Of a DNA stretch of 43,839 nucleotides, positions 8,885 to 41,759 are shown in pieces. The stretch's first letter is position 1. Each line of letters opens with the position of its first letter. This DNA is from Pseudomonadales bacterium (lineage in GTDB: Bacteria; Pseudomonadota; Gammaproteobacteria; Pseudomonadales; Azotimanducaceae), in the NCBI GenBank assembly GCA_019090615.1, contig JAHRVQ010000009.1:1-43839 (forward strand), written 5' to 3'. Made by a program: the position numbers and the translations under genes. The notes under the pieces are model-generated. The model saw only the letters and a program-made list of their open reading frames with translations, was not told the DNA's origin and searched no databases.

Positions 8885-10015
8885 CTAGTAACCTTGAGTC
8901 ACGCCATAACGATCACGATGAAACGCGCTATTACCTAGCGCATGCTCACAAACTCTGGAGCGTTTCATAAAAAAGCCAATTTCATATTCATCGGTCATGC
9001 CAATGCCACCATGCATTTGCACGCCTTCGCTACTCACCAGATTAAAAGTATCGTTTAGCCTTGCTTTGGTAAGGCTTGCCAATTCTGGAATTTGATCTGA
9101 ATTATCATCCAGCGCTGACAAAGCTTCCAGGACAACTGATTTTGACAGCTCTACTTCACAGAACATCTGCGAAGCGCGGTGCTTTAATGCCTGAAATGAA
9201 CCAATTGGCACACCAAATTGCTCTCTAACCTTCAAATATTCTACGGTCCGTTCAAAGCACTCCTGCACGCCACCTAACATTTCAGCGGAAAGCAAAATTC
9301 GTCCTGCATCCAGTACCTGTTCCAGAACCGCAGCGCCTTTACCTTCTTCACCTAGTAAAACACCTTCTGCTCCGTCAAATTCAATATTTGAGGCATTTCT
9401 ACTGTCAGCCATAATGGTCCGAGTTACGTTCACACCCGCTGAATCACGATCAACCAACACTAATGTTAGACCTTCGACATCTCCGGCCTTACCCGAACTT
9501 CTTGCAACAACAACTATTTTATTCGCTATATGGCCATCTAAGACAAACTTTTTGCTGCCACTCACCTTATAACCTGCAGATGATTTTTCAGCAGTGGTTT
9601 CAGCCCCATAAGGGCTGTGATGGGCTTTTTCTTCCAAAGCCAGCGCCAATAATAATTCGCCCGCAGCAACCTGAGGCAGTAATTCGCTTTTCTGCTGATC
9701 AGAACCCCCATGTAAAATCGCGCTAGCACCCAGCACCGCAGTACTAAACAGAGGCGATGCTGCTAGTGTTCGACCACATTCTTCCATGACCACACCCATG
9801 CCAAGAAATCCAAACCCCAGACCACCAAAATCTTCAGGAATTGTAATGCCAGCCCAGCCCAGTTCTACCATCTGCTGCCATGTGGCTGAATCAAACCCCT
9901 GCGCACTTTTATCGTCTCGCAAAGTCCGTAGTTGATTGATCGGTGTGTTGTTGGTGCAGAAATCTTTTGCTGCATCCTTCAACATATTCTGTTCTTCATT
10001 TAATACCAGTGGCAT
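8885..10015 (-). CDS. acyl-CoA dehydrogenase family protein
   Basis: 376-residue FAD-dependent acyl-CoA dehydrogenase. Visible elements are the N-terminal helical domain opening L-N-E-E-Q, the GWAGITIPEDFGGLG segment (about 53-67), the middle beta domain with YKVSGSKKFVLDG, and the C-terminal helices with REQFGVPIGSFQALKHR and QMHGGIGMTDEYEIGFF. By eye, the position of the MCAD-type catalytic glutamate near the C-terminus is not a glutamate (the run is KRSRVCEHALGN). This resembles the subunits found in heteromeric dehydrogenases of steroid or branched-acyl breakdown, but no partner subunit is adjacent. AGGAG lies about 10 nt before the ATG. A bidirectional terminator follows. The substrate is unknown; together with the racemase at 12879 it suggests branched acyl-CoA oxidation. 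Confidence 0.88.
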   Translation of the reverse strand: MPLVLNEEQNMLKDAAKDFCTNNTPINQLRTLRDDKSAQGFDSATWQQMVELGWAGITIPEDFGGLGFGFLGMGVVMEECGRTLAASPLFSTAVLGASAILHGGSDQQKSELLPQVAAGELLLALALEEKAHHSPYGAETTAEKSSAGYKVSGSKKFVLDGHIANKIVVVARSSGKAGDVEGLTLVLVDRDSAGVNVTRTIMADSRNASNIEFDGAEGVLLGEEGKGAAVLEQVLDAGRILLSAEMLGGVQECFERTVEYLKVREQFGVPIGSFQALKHRASQMFCEVELSKSVVLEALSALDDNSDQIPELASLTKARLNDTFNLVSSEGVQMHGGIGMTDEYEIGFFMKRSRVCEHALGNSAFHRDRYGVTQGY

Positions 10016-12878: not shown

Positions 12879-14018
12879 CTATGCCTTTACGCTGCCAACT
12901 GCACCTGATGTCAGCAGAGATTCGATCTCGGCACTATCAAAACCCGCTTCTTGCAGCACAACCAGCGAATCCTCACCAGCAATCCTGGCACTGTTAGTTA
13001 GACCCACCTCGGTACGACTGAATCGCGGTGCGGGCGACGGCTGAAGGATTCCATCCAACTCAGTGAAGGTGCCCCTATGTTGATTATGCGGATGTTCTGC
13101 AGCTTCCGTCAGAGATAACACCGGCGCAAAACATACATCCGTACCTTCCATTATTTCACACCATTGCGCTCTGGTTTTTTTGAGGAATACTGCGGCAATA
13201 TCTTCTTTTCTTGCAGCCCAGCTAGATCGATCCATCTGAGCTGAAAATTTATCGGGGTCCAACTCAGCCTTTTCGATTAAAAGTGCATAAAATTGCGGCT
13301 CAATGGATCCGATAGAAATATATTCGCCGTCACTGGTTTCGTAGGTATCATAAAAATGCGCACCAGTATCAAGTAAATTGGTACCCCTTTGAGAATCCCA
13401 CATGCCAGCTGCGTTCATGGTATAGAACATAGACATTAATATTGCAGCACCATCAACCATTGCGGTATCGACCACTTGTCCCGTACCAGATTTATGCGCT
13501 TCCAGAATTCCACATACCAGCCCAAACGCCAATACCATTCCACCGCCGCCAAAATCGCCAACAAGATTAAGTGGCGGTATTGGCTTGCCATTTTTTGCCC
13601 CTATAGCACTCAGGGCACCGGATAATGCAATGTAATTTATATCATGACCAGCTGCCTGAGACATTGGGCCGTCCTGGCCCCAACCGGTCATCCTGCCGTA
13701 CACAAGCTTTTCATTTTGCGCCATACACTCTTCCGGCCCCAATCCAAGACGCTCAGCGACGCCAGGCCTGAAACCTTCAAAAATAGCATCAGCACCTTCG
13801 CATAATTTCAGAATGACAGATTTACCTGCCTCGCTTTTCAGATCCAGCGCTATAGACTTACGACCTCTCGCCAAAACATCATTAGAGCGTCTGGTACTCC
13901 CACCAGTACGATCCACGCGGATTACTTCAGCGCCCATATCAGAAAGCATCATGCCGCAAAATGGACCAGGCCCTATGCCCGCCAATTCGATTATTTTAAT
14001 ACCCTTTAACGGCCCCAT
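12879..14018 (-). CDS. alpha-methylacyl-CoA racemase (CaiB/BaiF family)
   Basis: 379-residue class III CoA-transferase-fold enzyme that interconverts (2R)- and (2S)-2-methylacyl-CoA. This lets branched fatty acids or sterol side chains enter beta-oxidation. Catalytic residues match the mycobacterial MCR enzyme closely: H125 in [13 protein letters not shown]155 in [10 protein letters not shown] and E240 in GSIEPQF, against H126/D156/E241. Other family marks are MTGWGQDGP and [17 protein letters not shown] sits right before the ATG. It is a single-gene unit with its own terminator. With the acyl-CoA dehydrogenase and the crotonases nearby it suggests use of methyl-branched acyl chains. Confidence 0.94.
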
Positions 14019-26683: not shown

Positions 26684-27484
26684 ATGACAACTCAAACTCG
26701 CGCCCCTTATACAAACATATTGGTTGACAAACACAATGCGGTCACCGTCATTAGCATAAATCGCGCTAAAGCTCGCAATGCCGTTGATGGCCCAACAGCA
26801 GCATCGTTAGCCGCTGCATTTAGAGATTTCGACTCAGACGAATCACAAAAAGTCGCAATTTTAACTGGGGTTGATGGCACCTTTTGTGCTGGCGCTGATC
26901 TCAAAGCCGTCTCCACATCCAATGCTAACCCGGTCACCTATCCTGATGGTGATGGGCCCATGGGGCCAACCCGTATGCTACTTAGCAAACCTGTTATCGC
27001 TGCCATTGAGGGATTTGCAGTGGCAGGTGGGCTTGAACTTGCAGCCTGGTGTGATTTGAGAGTAGCCGCTGAAGATGCTGTGTTCGGGGTTTATTGCCGC
27101 CGCTGGGGTGTTCCTCTCATTGACGGTGGTACTATTCGCCTAACTCGCCTACTCGGCCATAGCCATGCGATGGATTTAATTCTCACTGGCCGCGGTGTAT
27201 CTGGACAGGAAGCAAAACAAATGGGGCTCGCTAATCGACTTACTGCATCCGGCGAAGCTTTGCAAACGGCCATCAAACTCGCTCAGGAACTGGGTAATTT
27301 CCCGCAACAATGTATGCGCAGCGACCGCCTCTCAAGCTATGAACAGTGGGATATGTCAATTCCAGCGGCACTTCAGCACGAAACTTCGCGGGGTATTGAG
27401 GTTATTAAATCGGGCGAAACTCGCGCTGGCGCCGCTCGGTTCGCAGCGGGTAAAGGCCGGCATGGGGATTTTGAAGAAATTTAG
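26684..27484 (+). CDS. crotonase-superfamily enoyl-CoA hydratase-like protein
   Basis: 266 residues: NRAKARNAVDGPTA, oxyanion segment GTFCAGADLKAV (65-76) and AIEGFAVAGGLELAAWCDL (107-125). The first hydratase glutamate is kept (E118 in GGLEL), but the second position reads C138 in FGVYCRRWGVPL where hydratases have Q-P-E. The RRWGVPLIDGGTIRL form is common in a distinct, widespread crotonase subgroup usually called enoyl-CoA hydratase without proof. It starts 7 bp after the cyclase stop and has no clear Shine-Dalgarno, so it is likely expressed with the cyclase. The reaction is uncertain. Confidence 0.88.
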   Translation: MTTQTRAPYTNILVDKHNAVTVISINRAKARNAVDGPTAASLAAAFRDFDSDESQKVAILTGVDGTFCAGADLKAVSTSNANPVTYPDGDGPMGPTRMLLSKPVIAAIEGFAVAGGLELAAWCDLRVAAEDAVFGVYCRRWGVPLIDGGTIRLTRLLGHSHAMDLILTGRGVSGQEAKQMGLANRLTASGEALQTAIKLAQELGNFPQQCMRSDRLSSYEQWDMSIPAALQHETSRGIEVIKSGETRAGAARFAAGKGRHGDFEEI

Positions 27485-35084: not shown

Positions 35085-36020
35085 CTATTCAGCAACATCC
35101 TGGGGCTTAACTGCTTCAATACCTTGCAGGGATGAAAAACACGTCTCCCGAGCAGTTGACAAAAAGTCTTGAATGTAGGGCGAATCAAACTGTTCTTTGC
35201 GTACTGCAGCGTACAGAGTTGACCATAAACCGAGCTTCCCCAGTTGCAGTGCGACAATCATTTCTTGGCGCGTATATTCTGCCAACGCCCAGTTTGGCAG
35301 ACTTACAATACCGCGCCCACCAGCAACTAACTGCACCATCATAGGCGTCAGCTCAGCCGTTCTGAGGGCGGCCGGTTCGACGTCAGCAGGGTCAAGAAAC
35401 TGGGTAAATATGTCCAGCCGGTCTCGCGCAACGGGGTAGATAATCAACACTTGATCACTAAAATCAGCAGCATCGACGTAAGACCGCTGCGCCAGTTTAT
35501 GATCGCGGCTCACAGCCAATTTAGCCTCGTAGCGAAACAACGGCACATATTTTATTTCTGCCAGCTCTAACGGATCGGAGGTGATCACTAAATCAAGATC
35601 ACCCCGCACCAGAGCCGGTAAAGGCTCAAAATTAAACCCCCCGGTTAAATCAAGTTCAACTTCTGGCCAGGCACCGCGATACCTGTCAATACAGGGCACT
35701 AGCCATTGAAAACAACTATGGCACTCGATACATATATGCAAACGTCCTACTTCACCGCCAGCCAGCCGCGCAATATCACGTTCTGCCAGCCTGAATGTGG
35801 GTATCACGTCATCGGCCAATGCAAGTAACCGACGCCCAGCAGTCGTGAACCTGGGAGGTTTGGTCTTGCGAATAAAAAGTGAACAACCCAGTCGGTCCTC
35901 TAAATCCTTAAGCTGATGGGATAACGCAGATTGCGTTAAAAACAATCGATCTGCAGCTTCCACCAGACTGCCGGTATCGCGTAATGCCACGAGCGTCTTC
36001 AAATGCCTAAGTTCTATCAA
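35085..36020 (-). CDS. metR: MetR, LysR-family regulator of methionine genes
   Basis: 311 residues from the TTG at 36020, supported by AAGGTGG just upstream and by exact agreement with the MetR opening M-I-E-x-x-H-L-K-T-L; the frame can extend 18 codons upstream but into non-family sequence. The HTH contains LTQSALSHQLKDLEDRLG. The effector domain has the MetR hallmark IECHSCFQWL and later LIYPVARDRLDIF. MetR senses homocysteine and activates metE/metH in relatives. No met gene adjoins it here; the nearest is the metX-like gene 27 kb away. Its upstream gap (36021-36257) shows no clear MetR box. Confidence 0.93.
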   Translation of the reverse strand: MIELRHLKTLVALRDTGSLVEAADRLFLTQSALSHQLKDLEDRLGCSLFIRKTKPPRFTTAGRRLLALADDVIPTFRLAERDIARLAGGEVGRLHICIECHSCFQWLVPCIDRYRGAWPEVELDLTGGFNFEPLPALVRGDLDLVITSDPLELAEIKYVPLFRYEAKLAVSRDHKLAQRSYVDAADFSDQVLIIYPVARDRLDIFTQFLDPADVEPAALRTAELTPMMVQLVAGGRGIVSLPNWALAEYTRQEMIVALQLGKLGLWSTLYAAVRKEQFDSPYIQDFLSTARETCFSSLQGIEAVKPQDVAE

Positions 36021-36257
36021 TGCCACCACCTTAAAAACAGGAAATACCAGGCCGAAAACCACCGAGCAAACCACTCAACAAACCACCGAAAAAACCAACA
36101 CCGTATTTTAACAAAATTTTCAATAGTCCCCAATAAGCACGAATATTCACCACTCGATGACTTTTAGGCTTTACTGAATAGACAGGCAAGAAAAATTTAT
36201 ATTAATCCTGCCACTAACAACGATCATATTTATGGAAAATAATGGGGAGTCGCCAGC

Positions 36258-37208
36258 ATGTTCAACCCTGTATCGATACTTATTGATGCATTTATTCCAA
36301 AAATAGCATCTCACTATATTGACCTATTTGGTGAAAATAAGGCCGACCTCCAGCTCATTCGCTTAACTGCACGGAACACGCTGGAAATCATCGCTAATAG
36401 CAATGCACCTTATCATGATATAAACCATACAATGCTCATTACCCTGGTTGGCGCAGAGATAATAAAAGGCAAAATCCAGGTCCGTGGCCAGATATCCGCC
36501 AACGACTGGGTACATATGCTTATTGCGCTTCTGCATCATGATATCGGTTACGTCAGGGGAATCTGTAAGGCCGACAGAGATGGTCGCTACGCAATCAATA
36601 ACGAAGGCGATACGATCGCTCCGCCGGCGGGCGCAACCGATGCATTTTTAACGCCCTATCATGTAGACCGGGCGAAAATTTTTATTACAGAACACTTCCT
36701 GACGGTTAAAAATATAGATGTTGAACTGGTTTGCGCAGGCGTAGAAAGAACTCGTTTCCCGATTCCCTGCGAAGCGGATCATCAGGGCACAGACGATATG
36801 GCCGGCCTAATTAGAGCCGCGGATCTAATTGGCCAATTGGCTGACCCCCAGTATTTTTGCAAAATTTCTCGACTTTTTGCCGAATTTAAAGAAACCGGTT
36901 CTGCCGCTAAATTGGGTTACACAACCGCTGCTGATATGCAAGCGAACTATCCCAAATTTTACTGGGAAACTATCTCTCCTTATATACAAATGGCGCTTAA
37001 ATATTTAAGGGCTACTCAGGATGGTCAAGCCTGGGTGGCTAACCTTTATGCCAATGTATTCACAGAAGAGCATCAAGCACCGAGTTATGGCCCAGAAAGA
37101 CGTAACAACACAGAACGAAGAATTGCTCCCAAGTCACTGTTTAATACAGATGAACTTAAATCCAGTAATAGTCGTAAAAAATTTCGACGAATGAACGACA
37201 GGGACTAG
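36258..37208 (+). CDS. HD-domain metal-dependent phosphohydrolase
   Basis: 316 residues; GGGGAG lies 8 nt before the ATG. HD-superfamily ligands can be seen: H53/H57 in YHDINHTM, HHD at 93-95 (ALLHHDIGY) and D189 in RAADLIGQLADP. The spacing resembles single HD/PDEase-type domains with a 3',5'-cyclic or nucleotide phosphoester substrate. The C-terminal 45 residues are basic and low-complexity (ERRNNTERR and a K/R-rich end) and probably flexible. The gene lies just upstream of the sugar cluster, but the 97-bp gap and weak link make co-function uncertain. With an adenylate cyclase in the same window a phosphodiesterase role is conceivable. Confidence 0.83.
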   Translation: MFNPVSILIDAFIPKIASHYIDLFGENKADLQLIRLTARNTLEIIANSNAPYHDINHTMLITLVGAEIIKGKIQVRGQISANDWVHMLIALLHHDIGYVRGICKADRDGRYAINNEGDTIAPPAGATDAFLTPYHVDRAKIFITEHFLTVKNIDVELVCAGVERTRFPIPCEADHQGTDDMAGLIRAADLIGQLADPQYFCKISRLFAEFKETGSAAKLGYTTAADMQANYPKFYWETISPYIQMALKYLRATQDGQAWVANLYANVFTEEHQAPSYGPERRNNTERRIAPKSLFNTDELKSSNSRKKFRRMNDRD

Positions 37209-37305: not shown

Positions 37306-38604
37306 ATGTCGAATAACGCCCCAAAAGAGCCTACAGACTCTGTCGCCGCCGTTTCTAAAATGAAACGTCCTTTAAAAATTTGCCTGCTAGGCTACAGAAG
37401 CAACCCATATAGCGGTGGGCAAGGCATCTATATTCGCTATTTGAGTAAAGCGTTGGTGGATGCAGGCCACGAAGTTGATATCATTTCTGGCCCTCCCTAT
37501 CCTCAACTGGACGATGGCATCAAGCTGATAAAGTTACCCAGTTTGAACCTTTACGAGAAAAAACACTTTATCCTGGCCCTAAGACCAAGGCACCTGCTTT
37601 CTTTCTCAGATTTTTTTGAGTGGTTTGCGATGGCATCAGGCGGTTTTGCTGAACCGTACACCTTTGGCCGCCGATTAAAAAAATATTTTGCAGAAAACAA
37701 TCCCCAATACGATATTGTTCACGACAATCAGTCGTTATGCTATGGCGTCCTTTCGCTTCAGCAATCAGGCATTCCATTACTGACCACAATCCATCACCCG
37801 ATAACCAGTGACCGTGATATTGCCCTGGCGAATGCCAAAAATATTCGCGCAAAATTATTCATCAAACGCTGGCATTCCTTTATCCGCATGCAAAAAAAGG
37901 TCGTCGCTGGACTAAAACATATCGTCACAGTTTCCGAAGTTTCGAGGCAGGACATCGCCCAGGCATTTCAAATACCCGCCAACAATATGCACGTGGTACA
38001 TAATGGCATTGACATGGATGTGTTTCGTCCGATGGCTAATGTTACACGCATACCTTACCGAATTATGGCCACCGCGAGCGCTGACCAACCCCTTAAAGGG
38101 TTACAGTACTTACTTAGGGCTATCGCTCAATTGACACCCGATATACCAGAAATCCAGCTGGTTGTGCTCGGCAAATTAAAGGCTAATGGTGAAACTGCAA
38201 AACTGGTCAAAACACTAAAAATCGAACCCCATTTGACCTTCGTCTCCGGTATTGAAACTGAAGCTGTGGTCAAGCTATATGCTGAGGCCAGCATTGTTGT
38301 AGTGCCTTCAGTGTACGAAGGGTTTGGCCTGCCAGCAGGCGAAGCAATGGCCTGCGGGGTACCCGTCATTTCCACCGACGGTGGCGCTTTACCCGAAGTC
38401 GTCGGCGATTGCGGTGTAACAGTCCCTGTCCGCGATGCGCAGGCTATCGCCGCTGCGATTACGGATTTACTGCAACATCCAGAAAAACGACAAACCTTAT
38501 CCGTTCGCGGCAGAGAGCGTATTCTCAAGCTATTTAGTTGGCGAGTAGCTGCACTCGATATGGTCAAATTATACGAAAGCATTATCGCGCAGCAAAAGGA
38601 ATAG
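37306..38604 (+). CDS. GT4 glycosyltransferase, ManT-like
   Basis: 432-residue GT-B fold, family 4 glycosyltransferase. The N-terminal Rossmann half has ICLLGYRSNPYSGGQGIYIR (25-44); the C-terminal half has the family EX7E motif with E338 and E346 in VYEGFGLPAGEAMACGVPVI, and STDGGALPEVVG. It should transfer a hexose from a nucleotide sugar with retention. Gene order with the next two genes, and the nearby second methyltransferase, match the actinobacterial methylmannose polysaccharide locus, where this position is the alpha-1,4-mannosyltransferase ManT. It ends 2 bp before the methyltransferase start. There is a weak Shine-Dalgarno. The GT4 family is certain; mannose specificity is inferred from context. 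Confidence 0.9.
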   Translation: MSNNAPKEPTDSVAAVSKMKRPLKICLLGYRSNPYSGGQGIYIRYLSKALVDAGHEVDIISGPPYPQLDDGIKLIKLPSLNLYEKKHFILALRPRHLLSFSDFFEWFAMASGGFAEPYTFGRRLKKYFAENNPQYDIVHDNQSLCYGVLSLQQSGIPLLTTIHHPITSDRDIALANAKNIRAKLFIKRWHSFIRMQKKVVAGLKHIVTVSEVSRQDIAQAFQIPANNMHVVHNGIDMDVFRPMANVTRIPYRIMATASADQPLKGLQYLLRAIAQLTPDIPEIQLVVLGKLKANGETAKLVKTLKIEPHLTFVSGIETEAVVKLYAEASIVVVPSVYEGFGLPAGEAMACGVPVISTDGGALPEVVGDCGVTVPVRDAQAIAAAITDLLQHPEKRQTLSVRGRERILKLFSWRVAALDMVKLYESIIAQQKE

Positions 38605-38606
38605 CC

Positions 38607-39401
38607 ATGTCCATGGAAACCATCAATTTCGATAATATGCAGTTAAAACCAGGGGAAAAAATACTGGATGTCGGCTGCGGCGAAGGCAGGCATTCAATCA
38701 CCGCTTATTCACTCGAAGACCTGGATTGTGTCGGCGTCGACCTCAGTCTTACAGACCTCAAGACTACTCGATCTCGCTTTGAAGAAATTAACCCTTCAGA
38801 AAATAACCTGAAAAGCCTGAATATCTCCGTTGCAAACGGACAAAAATTACCTTTTGCTGACAATAGCTTCGACAAGGTTATATGTTCTGAAGTACTCGAA
38901 CATATTCCAGATTACCGCCCTGTTCTAGGCGAAATATCCCGCGTACTAAAAACAGGCGGGATATTTGCTGCCAGTGTGCCCAGGTTTTTCCCAGAATGGG
39001 TCTGTTGGCAACTCAGCGATGATTACCACGCGATGGAAGGTGGGCATATCAGAATATTTAACGCAAAACATCTTAAGCAAGATATAGAGGCAGCCGATTT
39101 TATTTTTTTTAAACATCATTACGCACACGCTTTACATGTGCCCTATTGGTGGCTGAAATGTCTATTTTGGCGTGACGAAGACCAAAATCAGACCCGTATT
39201 GTAGATACCTACCATAAATTTCTGGTCTGGGATTTGATGCAAAAACCCTGGATAACCACCACTCTCGACCGTCTGATGAACCCAATACTGGGCAAAAGTG
39301 TTGTCATGTATTTTGTCAAAACTCTCGCTTCTGAACAGCCAATAAATCAAACTGATACCACCCAAAATAATACCAACAAAAAACAACAACAGAAAGGTTA
39401 A
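38607..39401 (+). CDS. class I SAM methyltransferase, MeT3-like
   Basis: 264 residues from the ATG at 38607; AAGGA lies 7 nt upstream. Methyltransf_11 pattern: ILDVGCGEGRHSITAY (19-34), acidic VGVDLS (42-47), LPFADNSFDKVICSEVLEHI (81-100) and LKTGGIFAASVPRFFPEW. A C-terminal portion of about 120 residues with HYAHALHVPYWWLKCLFW is unusual for small-molecule methyltransferases and matches what I recall of the proteins next to ManT in actinobacteria. It is probably an O-methyltransferase acting on the sugar made by the preceding gene (3-O in MMP). Translationally close to both neighbours. Confidence 0.88.
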   Translation: MSMETINFDNMQLKPGEKILDVGCGEGRHSITAYSLEDLDCVGVDLSLTDLKTTRSRFEEINPSENNLKSLNISVANGQKLPFADNSFDKVICSEVLEHIPDYRPVLGEISRVLKTGGIFAASVPRFFPEWVCWQLSDDYHAMEGGHIRIFNAKHLKQDIEAADFIFFKHHYAHALHVPYWWLKCLFWRDEDQNQTRIVDTYHKFLVWDLMQKPWITTTLDRLMNPILGKSVVMYFVKTLASEQPINQTDTTQNNTNKKQQQKG

Positions 39402-39407
39402 CTTAAC

Positions 39408-40496
39408 GTGACACTTCTTTATGTTTCCATGGGGTTTTATCCCGAAGAATATCTAAATCAATCGGTCGATTACATTGCCAGCGTACAAACACCTGATGGT
39501 GCCATACCCTGGTTTGAAGGCGGCACTCTTGACCCCTGGGATCATATTGAATCTGCTATGGGACTGACCATTGGAGGCCGCTATGATGAAGCCAGGCGCG
39601 CCTACTATTGGCTGCGCGACAACCAACTGCCCAATGGGAGCTGGTTAGCTGCCTACAGAGACGGCAAAGTTGAAGATGGCACCCGAGCCGAATCAAATTT
39701 TGTAGCCTATGTTGCCACTGGCATCTGGCATTATTATCTCATTACTGAAGATGCCGAATTTCTGCAAAATATCTGGCCAGTGGTTGAAAAAGCAATAGAA
39801 TTTGTATTACGCCTACAAGGTAACAAGGGAGAGATTTACTGGGCAGAAGACACCACTAAAGGTATTCAATATGACTCCCTTGTCACCGGTTGCAGCAGCA
39901 TCTATAAGAGCCTGGAATGCGCCCTGAATATCGCCACCACCCTTGGGTTTAAAGTACCCCACTGGGCACTGGCTAGAACAATGCTGTTAAATGCACTACA
40001 AAACCATCCTGAATGTTTTGATAAAACCTGGGAGAGCAAAAGCCGTTTTGCCATGGACTGGTTCTACCCAGTATTAACAGGCGTCATCACCGGCGCTCAG
40101 GCAAAACAACATCTATATAGTCGATGGGATCAATTTGTTGTTGATCAAATGGGCTGCCAATGTGTCAATGACGAACCCTGGGTAACCGTTGCAGAATCTT
40201 GCGAACTGGTAATGGCACTATTAGCTGCGGGCGAATACCATCGCGCTGTACATTTATTCAGTTGGCTGCATCAGTTTAGAGAACCTAACGGTGCCTATTG
40301 GACGGGTTTTGTTTATCCGAAAGAAGAACTATGGCCGCTGGAAAAACCGACCTGGACAGCTGCGGCCATTTTATTGGCAGCCGATGCGCTAGCCAACAAG
40401 ACCGCAGCAGCACATCTATTTAAACAAGAATCAATTGTCATTGCGGCGCAGGACACCCAACGTTCGAACTACCCCAAGGTCATCGAACAACCCTGA
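39408..40496 (+). CDS. (alpha/alpha)6-barrel protein, MmpH-like glycoside hydrolase candidate
   Basis: 362 residues from the GTG at 39408; an ATG at 39429 is possible. Helical-repeat protein of the kind automatically named prenyltransferase/squalene oxidase repeat. Conserved-looking pieces are QTPDGAIPWFEGGTLDPWDH (27-46), YDEARRAYYWLRDNQLPNGS, LVTGCSSIYKSLECA (158-172), MDWFYPVLTG, NDEPWVTVAESCELVMAL (254-271) and YWTGFVYP with PTWTAAAILLAADAL. This set matches the actinobacterial protein in the MMP locus, MmpH, an endo-hydrolase of methylmannose polymer. The acids in DPWDH and VAESCE are candidate catalytic residues. Prenyl transfer is unlikely, as no such pathway is near. Its last 66 bp overlap the convergent methyltransferase gene. 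Confidence 0.85.
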   Translation: MTLLYVSMGFYPEEYLNQSVDYIASVQTPDGAIPWFEGGTLDPWDHIESAMGLTIGGRYDEARRAYYWLRDNQLPNGSWLAAYRDGKVEDGTRAESNFVAYVATGIWHYYLITEDAEFLQNIWPVVEKAIEFVLRLQGNKGEIYWAEDTTKGIQYDSLVTGCSSIYKSLECALNIATTLGFKVPHWALARTMLLNALQNHPECFDKTWESKSRFAMDWFYPVLTGVITGAQAKQHLYSRWDQFVVDQMGCQCVNDEPWVTVAESCELVMALLAAGEYHRAVHLFSWLHQFREPNGAYWTGFVYPKEELWPLEKPTWTAAAILLAADALANKTAAAHLFKQESIVIAAQDTQRSNYPKVIEQP

Positions 40497-41048
40497 ATCG
40501 ATGGCTTTTTTCCAGATGATATGCGGCGCCTGGCCGCCTTCATCTGGATGCTTAAATATATCATGGATAGCCAATATACCGCCCTTAATGACATGCTTTG
40601 ACCAACACTCATAATCAGTCATTGCAGCCTCCAAACTGTGCCCACCATCGATAAACACCATGCCCAATGGCGTTTGCCAATCTCTGGCAGCAGTAATTGA
40701 CGAGGCAACCAAAGGCACCACAAAATCTTCCAGCTCAGCCTTTTGCATCGCCGAACGAAAAGCAAAGAAGCTATCCATCAGACCCGATCTGGAATCGAAT
40801 AGATCGGGATCATGGTATTCCTCACCCTGCTGATGCTCTTCGGAACCTCGGTGGTGGTCCAGCGCAAAAAGCGTCCGACCCAGTTGTTTGCAGGCAGTGC
40901 CCATATAAAGGGTTGATTTACCGCAATAGCTACCAATTTCCAGACAGGGCCCCAGCGTCGATGCCTCGGTGCATCGATCAAACAAAGCTTGCCCTTCAAC
41001 AGGGTCTAAAAACCCTTTAATAGTCTCAATATCAATCGGTAATTTCAT
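40431..41048 (-). CDS. Methyltransf_24-type SAM methyltransferase, MeT1-like
   Basis: 205 residues. SAM-binding LEIGSYCGKSTLYMG at 36-50, then FALDHHRGSEEHQQGEEYHD (61-80), VFIDGGHSLEAAMTDYECW (131-149) with D134/H137, and LAIHDIF (D163). The DHHRGSEEHQ..EYHD stretch is, from memory, shared with actinobacterial MeT1, the 1-O-methyltransferase that caps methylmannose chains and needs a divalent metal. The gene is read against the other three cluster genes, with stop-side overlap, but its partner set is the same as in that locus. Shine-Dalgarno AAAGAG lies about 6-10 nt before the ATG. Confidence 0.85.
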   Translation of the reverse strand: MKLPIDIETIKGFLDPVEGQALFDRCTEASTLGPCLEIGSYCGKSTLYMGTACKQLGRTLFALDHHRGSEEHQQGEEYHDPDLFDSRSGLMDSFFAFRSAMQKAELEDFVVPLVASSITAARDWQTPLGMVFIDGGHSLEAAMTDYECWSKHVIKGGILAIHDIFKHPDEGGQAPHIIWKKAIDSGLFDDLGVVRTLGVLRRNDN

Positions 41049-41300: not shown

Positions 41301-41759
41301 ATGAGCCTCGAATCGATTCAAATAATTAAATGCGTCGTATGCAATCCGGAATCCCAGCAAAGCAACCGGTTAATAGAAAAGGATAACTATGACCTCTGGC
41401 GTTACCTTGTCACAACGAAACATAATATCACAATCGTAGAAAGTACTCTGGCGCTCTGGATTACCCAATCTGAATTCACTCAAAAACAGGCAATCTATCA
41501 AAGAGCAGGGCAGATTGAGGCCGCCAATCGGCTGATGTTGACCATGTACGATGATGATGGCAACTTTAGCAATACCTGCCGCTTTGTGCTCGACTCTGAG
41601 ACCGCTGAAGTGGAATCGATTCTATTACGCCATATACCCAAAGAACAACGTCTCAATCAACAATACTCACTGGTTATTGAACCCGGTCAACTGGTCACCA
41701 GGGGACCACTGAGTCAATTAAGCCTGAGTGAGAAAGCGCTAGACTTCGAATTGGAATAG
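41301..41759 (+). CDS. unknown 152-residue cytosolic protein
   Basis: 152 residues; AAAGAA lies about 10 nt upstream of the ATG. There is no signal or membrane segment. An early CVVC pair (11-14) is too isolated for a zinc ribbon. The middle is mixed helix/strand and the end reads RHIPKEQRLNQQYSLVIEPG then LVTRGPLSQLSL. I do not recognise a family. The stop codon lies in the first copy of a 17-bp repeat that continues downstream. It converges with moeA. The coding call rests on length and a plausible start. Confidence 0.6.
   Translation: MSLESIQIIKCVVCNPESQQSNRLIEKDNYDLWRYLVTTKHNITIVESTLALWITQSEFTQKQAIYQRAGQIEAANRLMLTMYDDDGNFSNTCRFVLDSETAEVESILLRHIPKEQRLNQQYSLVIEPGQLVTRGPLSQLSLSEKALDFELE

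Follow-up and report, generated by a model that had tools for sequence, protein, structure and literature searches.

A 43,839-nucleotide stretch of DNA from a Pseudomonadales bacterium of the family Azotimanducaceae (NCBI GenBank assembly GCA_019090615.1, contig JAHRVQ010000009.1, positions 1 to 43,839, forward strand; here called the window) very probably contains a complete gene set of the methylmannose polysaccharide (MMP) type, whose products would make a cytoplasmic, 1-O-capped methylmannose polymer that is renewed by the endomannosidase MmpH. The set consists of four adjacent, intact genes at 37306-41048, recognized by translation of the open reading frames (ORFs) (Table 1). MMP is an alpha-(1->4)-linked chain of 11 to 14 3-O-methylmannose units with a 1-O-methyl cap. 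Descriptions of it come from mycobacteria and related actinobacteria, where it has been proposed to sequester acyl-CoA and where its physiological role is unsettled, and ManT, MmpH, and MeT1 have been characterized in the mycobacterial pathway, for which a self-recycling scheme has been published (PMC9883506).

A preliminary description of the window, made from its letters, had proposed an MMP-type set in a gammaproteobacterium, and comparison with characterized enzymes supports this interpretation. The four genes that it listed (GT4 glycosyltransferase, Methyltransf_11, barrel protein, and Methyltransf_24) are present with intact reading frames and correspond to mycobacterial ManT, MeT3, MmpH, and MeT1: three of the proteins have Mycobacterium hassiacum enzymes as their best Protein Data Bank (PDB) matches, and the fourth is the best match among the own-genome methyltransferases compared for the putative MeT3 of Mycobacterium (pMeT3). 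Four of the five motifs quoted from the proteins occur exactly as written; the fifth has one residue more ahead of EYHD than was quoted (three instead of two). A gammaproteobacterial host fits the data, since a K189A clade bacterium and Gammaproteobacteria bacterium UBA4475 are among the nearest named loci.

Encoded enzymes

In phmmer searches of the PDB, the barrel protein matched MmpH (7qsj) with an E value of 1.3e-103, the next chain reaching 9.8e-5, and 155 of 310 residues are identical over the aligned part; no Pfam family reached its gathering score. An AlphaFold2 model (predicted local distance difference test [pLDDT] score, 89.8) superposed on 7qsj_B with a root mean square deviation of 1.1 Å, TM-scores of 0.88 and 0.93, and 47% identity, and the next different protein after MmpH gave an E value of 1.5e-9. 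The residues published for the active site and subsites of MmpH (D47, W49, D50, N101, F102, T163, M215, Y219, E262, E265, and W315; PMC9883506) are identical at all 11 positions, including the catalytic Asp47, Asp50, and Glu262 (D42, D45, and E263 here). The sequence match and the close superposition place the protein with MmpH and not in a separate family. The Methyltransf_24 protein matched MeT1 (6g7d; E value, 6.8e-54) and no other chain up to an E value of 10, so that it likewise does not fall in a family apart from MeT1.

The GT4 protein matched ManT of M. hassiacum (7qsg) with an E value of 2.6e-95 (323 bits; next chain, 6.4e-29 and 104 bits). Comparison sets from its own genome were fetched by Pfam family and comprised 18 Glycos_transf_1 and 28 Methyltransf_11 places. 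Mycobacterium ManT scored 314 bits with the cluster gene and at most 69 bits with the other GT4 loci, and the cluster gene was also the best match in this set for ManT of Nocardia, Natrinema, and Smithella. A firm grouping with lipopolysaccharide (LPS) or exopolysaccharide enzymes had been named beforehand as the outcome that would speak against ManT; the gene goes with ManT instead. Of the 10 ManT residues checked, eight are unchanged, among them His, Lys, and both Glu residues of the GT-B site (H163, K264, E338, and E346), and the mannosyl-contact residues Glu313, Gly314, Phe315, and Leu317 of ManT are all kept. The positions proposed to read the nucleotide base differ (L291 to I316 and D293 to T318), and in a 19-row ManT alignment neither position is fully or almost fully conserved. 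These two changes would suit a polymer built by the same mechanism from another nucleotide sugar, that is, a methylated alpha-(1->4) chain of a different sugar. We consider this quite unlikely, given the retained mannosyl contacts and the full set of MmpH residues, which are those of a mannan-specific enzyme. The genome also encodes GMP_PMI, a mannose-1-phosphate guanylyltransferase/mannose-6-phosphate isomerase (TIGR01479, 708 bits; cutoff, 373), so GDP-mannose can be made.

For the Methyltransf_11 protein, no solved orthologue was found by sequence or structure search. Against the own-genome set, Mycobacterium pMeT3 scored 211 bits with the cluster gene and 46 with the next, and the meT3-like gene keeps its linked position across phyla (26-row alignment). 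Its predicted structure (pLDDT, 87.6) matched varied small-molecule methyltransferases with TM-scores of about 0.6, a result that gives no regiochemistry. The mycobacterial pMeT3 is itself only putative (PMC9883506).

The three Pfam families scored above their cutoffs (Glycos_transf_1, 116 bits; Methyltransf_11, 78 bits; Methyltransf_24, 81 bits). The meT3-like ORF as listed begins with TTG at 38538, and ATG at 38607 is the likelier start, since it lies 2 bases past the GT4 stop and is preceded by an AGGA stretch. With spacings of 2 and 6 bases, manT, meT3, and mmpH look like one operon. The meT1-like gene is convergent with mmpH, and the coding tails of the two overlap by 66 bases (40431-40496); such overlaps recur in relatives (48 to 57 bases between aligned parts in L004-L008). 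A simple hydropathy scan found no 19-residue segment with a mean hydropathy of 1.6 or more in any of the four proteins, which is consistent with a cytosolic location.

Table 1. Coordinates and proposed identities of the cluster genes and their neighbors in the window
Feature	Position	Strand	Remarks
manT-like; GT4, candidate alpha-(1->4)-mannosyltransferase	37306-38604	+	432 aa; matches ManT 7qsg
meT3-like; SAM-dependent class I methyltransferase, candidate 3-O-methyltransferase (pMeT3)	38607-39401	+	Methyltransf_11; matches pMeT3
mmpH-like; candidate (alpha/alpha)6-barrel endomannosidase for polymer recycling	39408-40496	+	GTG start; 362 aa; matches MmpH 7qsj
meT1-like; candidate 1-O-methyltransferase capping the reducing end	40431-41048	-	205 aa; matches MeT1 6g7d
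MetR-like LysR regulator that may control the cluster (predicted role)	35085-36074	-	NCBIfam MetR, 286 bits, below cutoff of 382
HD-domain metalloprotein, Npun_R2479 type; upstream neighbor	36258-37208	+	NF045583, 348 bits, below cutoff of 400
152-aa protein	41301-41759	+	Searched against Pfam and NCBIfam to E 0.01 without a match

Gene order and distribution

A scan of species genomes gave at least 593 candidate stretches and at least 588 relatives, the best 80 of which are the named loci (numbered with L). Among these 80, MmpH relatives occur in Gammaproteobacteria (among them Halieaceae, Pseudohalioglobus, Spongiibacter, Zhongshania, Microbulbifer, Endozoicomonas, Simiduia, SAR86, and a K189A clade bacterium), Alphaproteobacteria (e.g., Parvibaculum), a SAR324 metagenome-assembled genome (MAG), deltaproteobacterial records (e.g., Smithella and Desulfatitalea), actinobacteria (Mycobacterium, Nocardia, Dietzia, and Embleya), and one haloarchaeon, Natrinema gari (L087). 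MmpH was present in 35 of 58 close relatives of the window's genome and in 3 of 299 genomes drawn from its phylum, its own genome counted. In draws from the phyla of the Mycobacterium, Natrinema, and Desulfatitalea loci, each phylum being taken from the named center locus, the counts were 32/198, 5/196, and 25/198, respectively.

All four genes are identically arranged in the 13 loci of relatives L002-L014. The order manT-meT3-mmpH, all on one strand, occurs in 68 of the 69 named loci whose sequence reaches far enough upstream, and the full order with reversed meT1 downstream is found in 50 of the 65 with room on both sides. In further loci, the upstream order is kept in 17/17 actinobacterial, 5/5 haloarchaeal (L143-L147), and 12/17 desulfobacterial cases, with meT1 downstream in 9, 0, and 10, respectively. 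The gene-order survey proposed in the preliminary description shows the arrangement recurring in relatives. Order and strands in the window match those of Mycobacterium ahvazicum (L094), including the opposite orientation of meT1, a feature that the preliminary description had passed over. The MMP cluster of nontuberculous mycobacteria (PMC9883506) has the same four families, the same MmpH catalytic residues, and the order with reversed meT1 seen in L094. The window differs from it in its Gram-negative host, the adjacent MetR-like and HD-domain genes, and the changed ManT base contacts, and its product is deduced from the genes.

Co-occurrence of MmpH and MeT1

The 58 close relatives comprise 35 genomes with both MmpH and MeT1, none with MmpH alone, 1 with MeT1 alone, and 22 with neither (Fisher P = 4e-15). 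A mixed set of 80 genomes included 48 of the 62 MmpH-positive genomes from the three phylum draws; MeT1 was found, with E values of 1e-15 or better, in 43/43 MmpH-positive bacteria of two further phyla against 0/32 MmpH-negative genomes, 24 of them bacterial (Fisher P = 1e-18 for the bacteria). These P values treat related genomes as independent and are inflated by kinship.

MeT1 is nearby in most named loci, and 18 have none in the stretch examined. The genomes of 17 of these were searched (L080 left out), with two MeT1-positive loci as controls: 15 carry MeT1 elsewhere, whereas the other two, from Natrinema and a Desulfobacterales MAG, gave no match genome-wide. This co-occurrence, for which gene linkage is not required, is the strongest evidence that both enzymes act on one product. 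Among the five MmpH-positive haloarchaeal genomes searched, none gave a MeT1 match; with the first three genes and no such match, haloarchaea are candidates for an uncapped or differently capped variant.

Evolutionary history

In an MmpH tree of 94 rows, the actinobacteria, Alphaproteobacteria, and haloarchaea each lie on one side of a branch (Shimodaira-Hasegawa approximate likelihood ratio test [SH-aLRT] support of 91, 99, and 100, respectively), and the four rows nearest the window are all gammaproteobacterial. The ManT, MeT3, and MeT1 trees likewise hold the actinobacteria on one side of a branch (SH-aLRT support of 97, 88, and 99) and place at least three gammaproteobacterial rows nearest the window. 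The gammaproteobacterial rows do not form one clade (three to four label changes), and the haloarchaeal rows stand with the Alphaproteobacteria amid them (support of 85), a placement that suggests an old transfer. The trees are quick and unrooted, the long rows L079, L179, and L180 are placed unsurely, and sampling is biased toward matches of the window proteins.

Recent acquisition from actinobacteria, with the set persisting as a foreign relic, would agree with the characterized system being actinobacterial and with the patchy occurrence in the window's phylum noted above. It is nonetheless very improbable. All four trees, which cover the transfer that the preliminary description had wished to see judged by phylogeny, keep the actinobacteria apart from the window and its gammaproteobacterial neighbors and so give no sign of a recent gift in the window copy; in addition, MmpH is found in the majority of close relatives counted above, the GC content of the cluster region (0.44 to 0.47) lies inside the range of the window (0.415 to 0.477), and the reading frames are intact. 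As for mobile carriage, no match was found in a phage collection and none was confirmed among viral contigs; the sole "plasmid" record with a match is an 11.85-Mb Nonomuraea record.

Neighboring genes

At least 26 of the 80 named clusters, all gammaproteobacterial (within L027-L082), lie beside rmlB-, rmlC-, hldE-, waaA-, or tolC-type genes (hldE and waaA verified by Pfam; the rmlB, rmlC, and tolC types named by eye). This neighborhood was seen in Halieaceae-type and other gammaproteobacterial genomes. It speaks for the main rival explanation, an LPS-type glycan, in which the genes would build or modify an O-antigen, core, or exopolysaccharide that bears O-methyl groups and is exported to the surface, and the relatives of MmpH and MeT1 would act on lipid-linked or released intermediates. 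GT4 enzymes are, as a general matter, common in LPS clusters. An O-antigen that is a 3-O-methylmannose homopolymer also exists in Oligotropha carboxidovorans, likewise an LPS-bearing bacterium; it differs from MMP in being alpha-(1->2)-linked and carried on LPS, and the accessible text describes neither an endomannosidase nor a 1-O-capping step for it (PMC9883506). We nevertheless regard a surface glycan as unlikely. The GT4 is a ManT orthologue by its score relative to the other own-genome GT4 loci compared, the flanking genes scanned in the window included no LPS, export, or lipid-carrier gene, and the set is also present in actinobacteria and haloarchaea. Neither of these groups is known to have LPS. 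Moreover, judging from MeT1 chemistry (PMC9883506), the reducing end would have to be free for a 1-O-methyltransferase to act, and in lipid-linked glycans it should not be.

Eight of the 80 named loci have a relative of the MetR-like gene next to the cluster, and in L065, L071, and L077 this relative is directly divergent from manT. It is plausible that this regulator ties the cluster to methyl-group and S-adenosylmethionine (SAM) supply for a polymethylated product. The palindrome TGAANNNNNTTCA, the MetR box consensus, occurs twice in the window against 1.27 expected, a chance level, and is absent from the window's lysR-HD and HD-manT intergenic stretches. Exact copies were present in three of nine stretches, namely, these two and those of L023, L025, L044, L065, L071, L077, and L084 (L024 left out). 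HD-protein relatives precede the cluster in L022-L025, L044, and L084; in L023-L025, L044, and L084, as in the window, the HD-protein gene separates the cluster from the MetR-like gene. L006 and L011 have relatives of the 152-aa protein next to the cluster.

In 17 of the 80 named loci and 14 of 17 further desulfobacterial loci (L088 and L168 are one genome, counted in both sets), the cluster is accompanied by a linked gene for a hexapeptide-repeat protein of about 240 aa. This protein scores above the cutoff for Pfam Hexapep, and its best NCBIfam matches, below their cutoffs, are sugar O-acetyltransferases. Examples of the gene, of the left-handed beta-helix type, are at L049:6740-7462 (+) and L164:5134-5853 (+). 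Within flanks of about 4 to 5 kb, it was not found in 17 actinobacterial loci, five haloarchaeal loci, or the window. Where MeT1 is unlinked to MmpH, the gene stands beside it in three of six gammaproteobacterial loci (L102, L105, and L106 among L101-L103, L105, L106, and L109). Acetylated MMP (AMMP) has been mentioned for Streptomyces griseus (PMC9883506), so that a natural guess is that this acetyltransferase-like gene of proteobacterial and desulfobacterial relatives is a candidate fifth pathway gene acetylating the polymer. Fifteen desulfobacterial loci have a linked gene for a B12-binding radical SAM protein, mostly behind the hexapeptide gene (e.g., L164:5935-7584, +; best NCBIfam match BchE, 230 bits, below cutoff).

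Of the acyl-CoA genes that the preliminary description had found suggestive, those identified in the window (8885-10015, 12879-14018, and 26684-27484) add little to the argument: over 9.8 kb separates them from the cluster, and genes of this type are infrequent among the recurrent neighbors within about 5 kb in relatives, where enoyl-CoA-hydratase-like, short-chain dehydrogenase/reductase, and carboxylase-like groups (named by eye) appear in five to seven loci each.

Proposed pathway and significance

In the proposed pathway, ManT would add alpha-(1->4)-mannose from GDP-mannose onto a short oligomannoside, MeT3 would methylate the 3-OH of the added units, and MeT1 would cap the chain by 1-O-methylation at its reducing end. 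MmpH would then cut finished chains internally into short primers, so that the polymer is renewed from itself, and the product would be a soluble cytoplasmic polymer, not a surface glycan. We infer from the enzymes the sugar, the donor, the linkage, the MeT3 methylation site, where in the cell the polymer resides, and what physiological role it has. The O-methylated mannose product put forward in the preliminary description is likewise predicted from enzyme orthology.

Several observations weigh against this pathway. MeT3 has neither a solved orthologue nor an established mycobacterial counterpart, and its 3-O regiochemistry is only predicted. The proposed guanine contact of ManT, Asp293, is Thr318 here, which bears on donor specificity, and GMP_PMI, encoded on a different contig that also has several GT4 genes, is thus not dedicated to the cluster. 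The MmpH matches of 3 of the 35 relatives contain one stop inside the aligned stretch. One relative (G330, 99% complete) has MeT1 without MmpH, and to this are added the haloarchaea without MeT1, the kinship among the genomes in the Fisher tests, and the gammaproteobacterial clusters with LPS-type flanks.

A broader reading, on which our judgment is evenly balanced, is that MMP is an old, widespread cytoplasmic bacterial polymer with haloarchaeal offshoots and several variants, coupled in some gammaproteobacteria to methionine and SAM supply by a MetR-like regulator and with a function independent of type I fatty acid synthase. The variants in this reading would be a polymer acylated through the hexapeptide acetyltransferase (Gammaproteobacteria, Alphaproteobacteria, SAR324, and Desulfobacterota), one linked to the radical SAM protein (Desulfobacterota), and the uncapped or differently capped haloarchaeal form; the general function would perhaps be cold or osmotic adaptation. 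Bacteria with the set are expected to use a type II fatty acid synthase, and haloarchaea have isoprenoid lipids, so a general role tied to the mycobacterial type I synthase is unlikely. The 6-O-methylglucose lipopolysaccharide (MGLP) of mycobacteria is also an intracellular polymethylated polymer and a proposed fatty acyl-CoA binder (PMC9883506); it is built on glucose, unlike MMP, and carries acyl groups (PMC4555173).

The MMP gene set itself is known, and its breadth beyond actinobacteria should surprise specialists. In its accessible part, PMC9883506 discusses homologues for actinobacteria only and contains no word beginning with "proteobacteria." Among the papers listed from the accessible literature, judged by titles and abstract openings and with few subscription papers covered, no report of MMP outside actinobacteria was found. 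With relatives of the set in other proteobacteria, Desulfobacterota, and haloarchaea, the function of the methylmannose chain may extend past the lipid metabolism of mycobacteria. The pairing of MmpH and MeT1 across bacterial phyla independently supports the published recycling model, and the haloarchaeal exception offers a natural test of the capping step. The named Gram-negative strains of Pseudohalioglobus, Spongiibacter, Microbulbifer, Endozoicomonas, and Zhongshania, together with Natrinema, open the function of MMP to study in nonmycobacterial cells.

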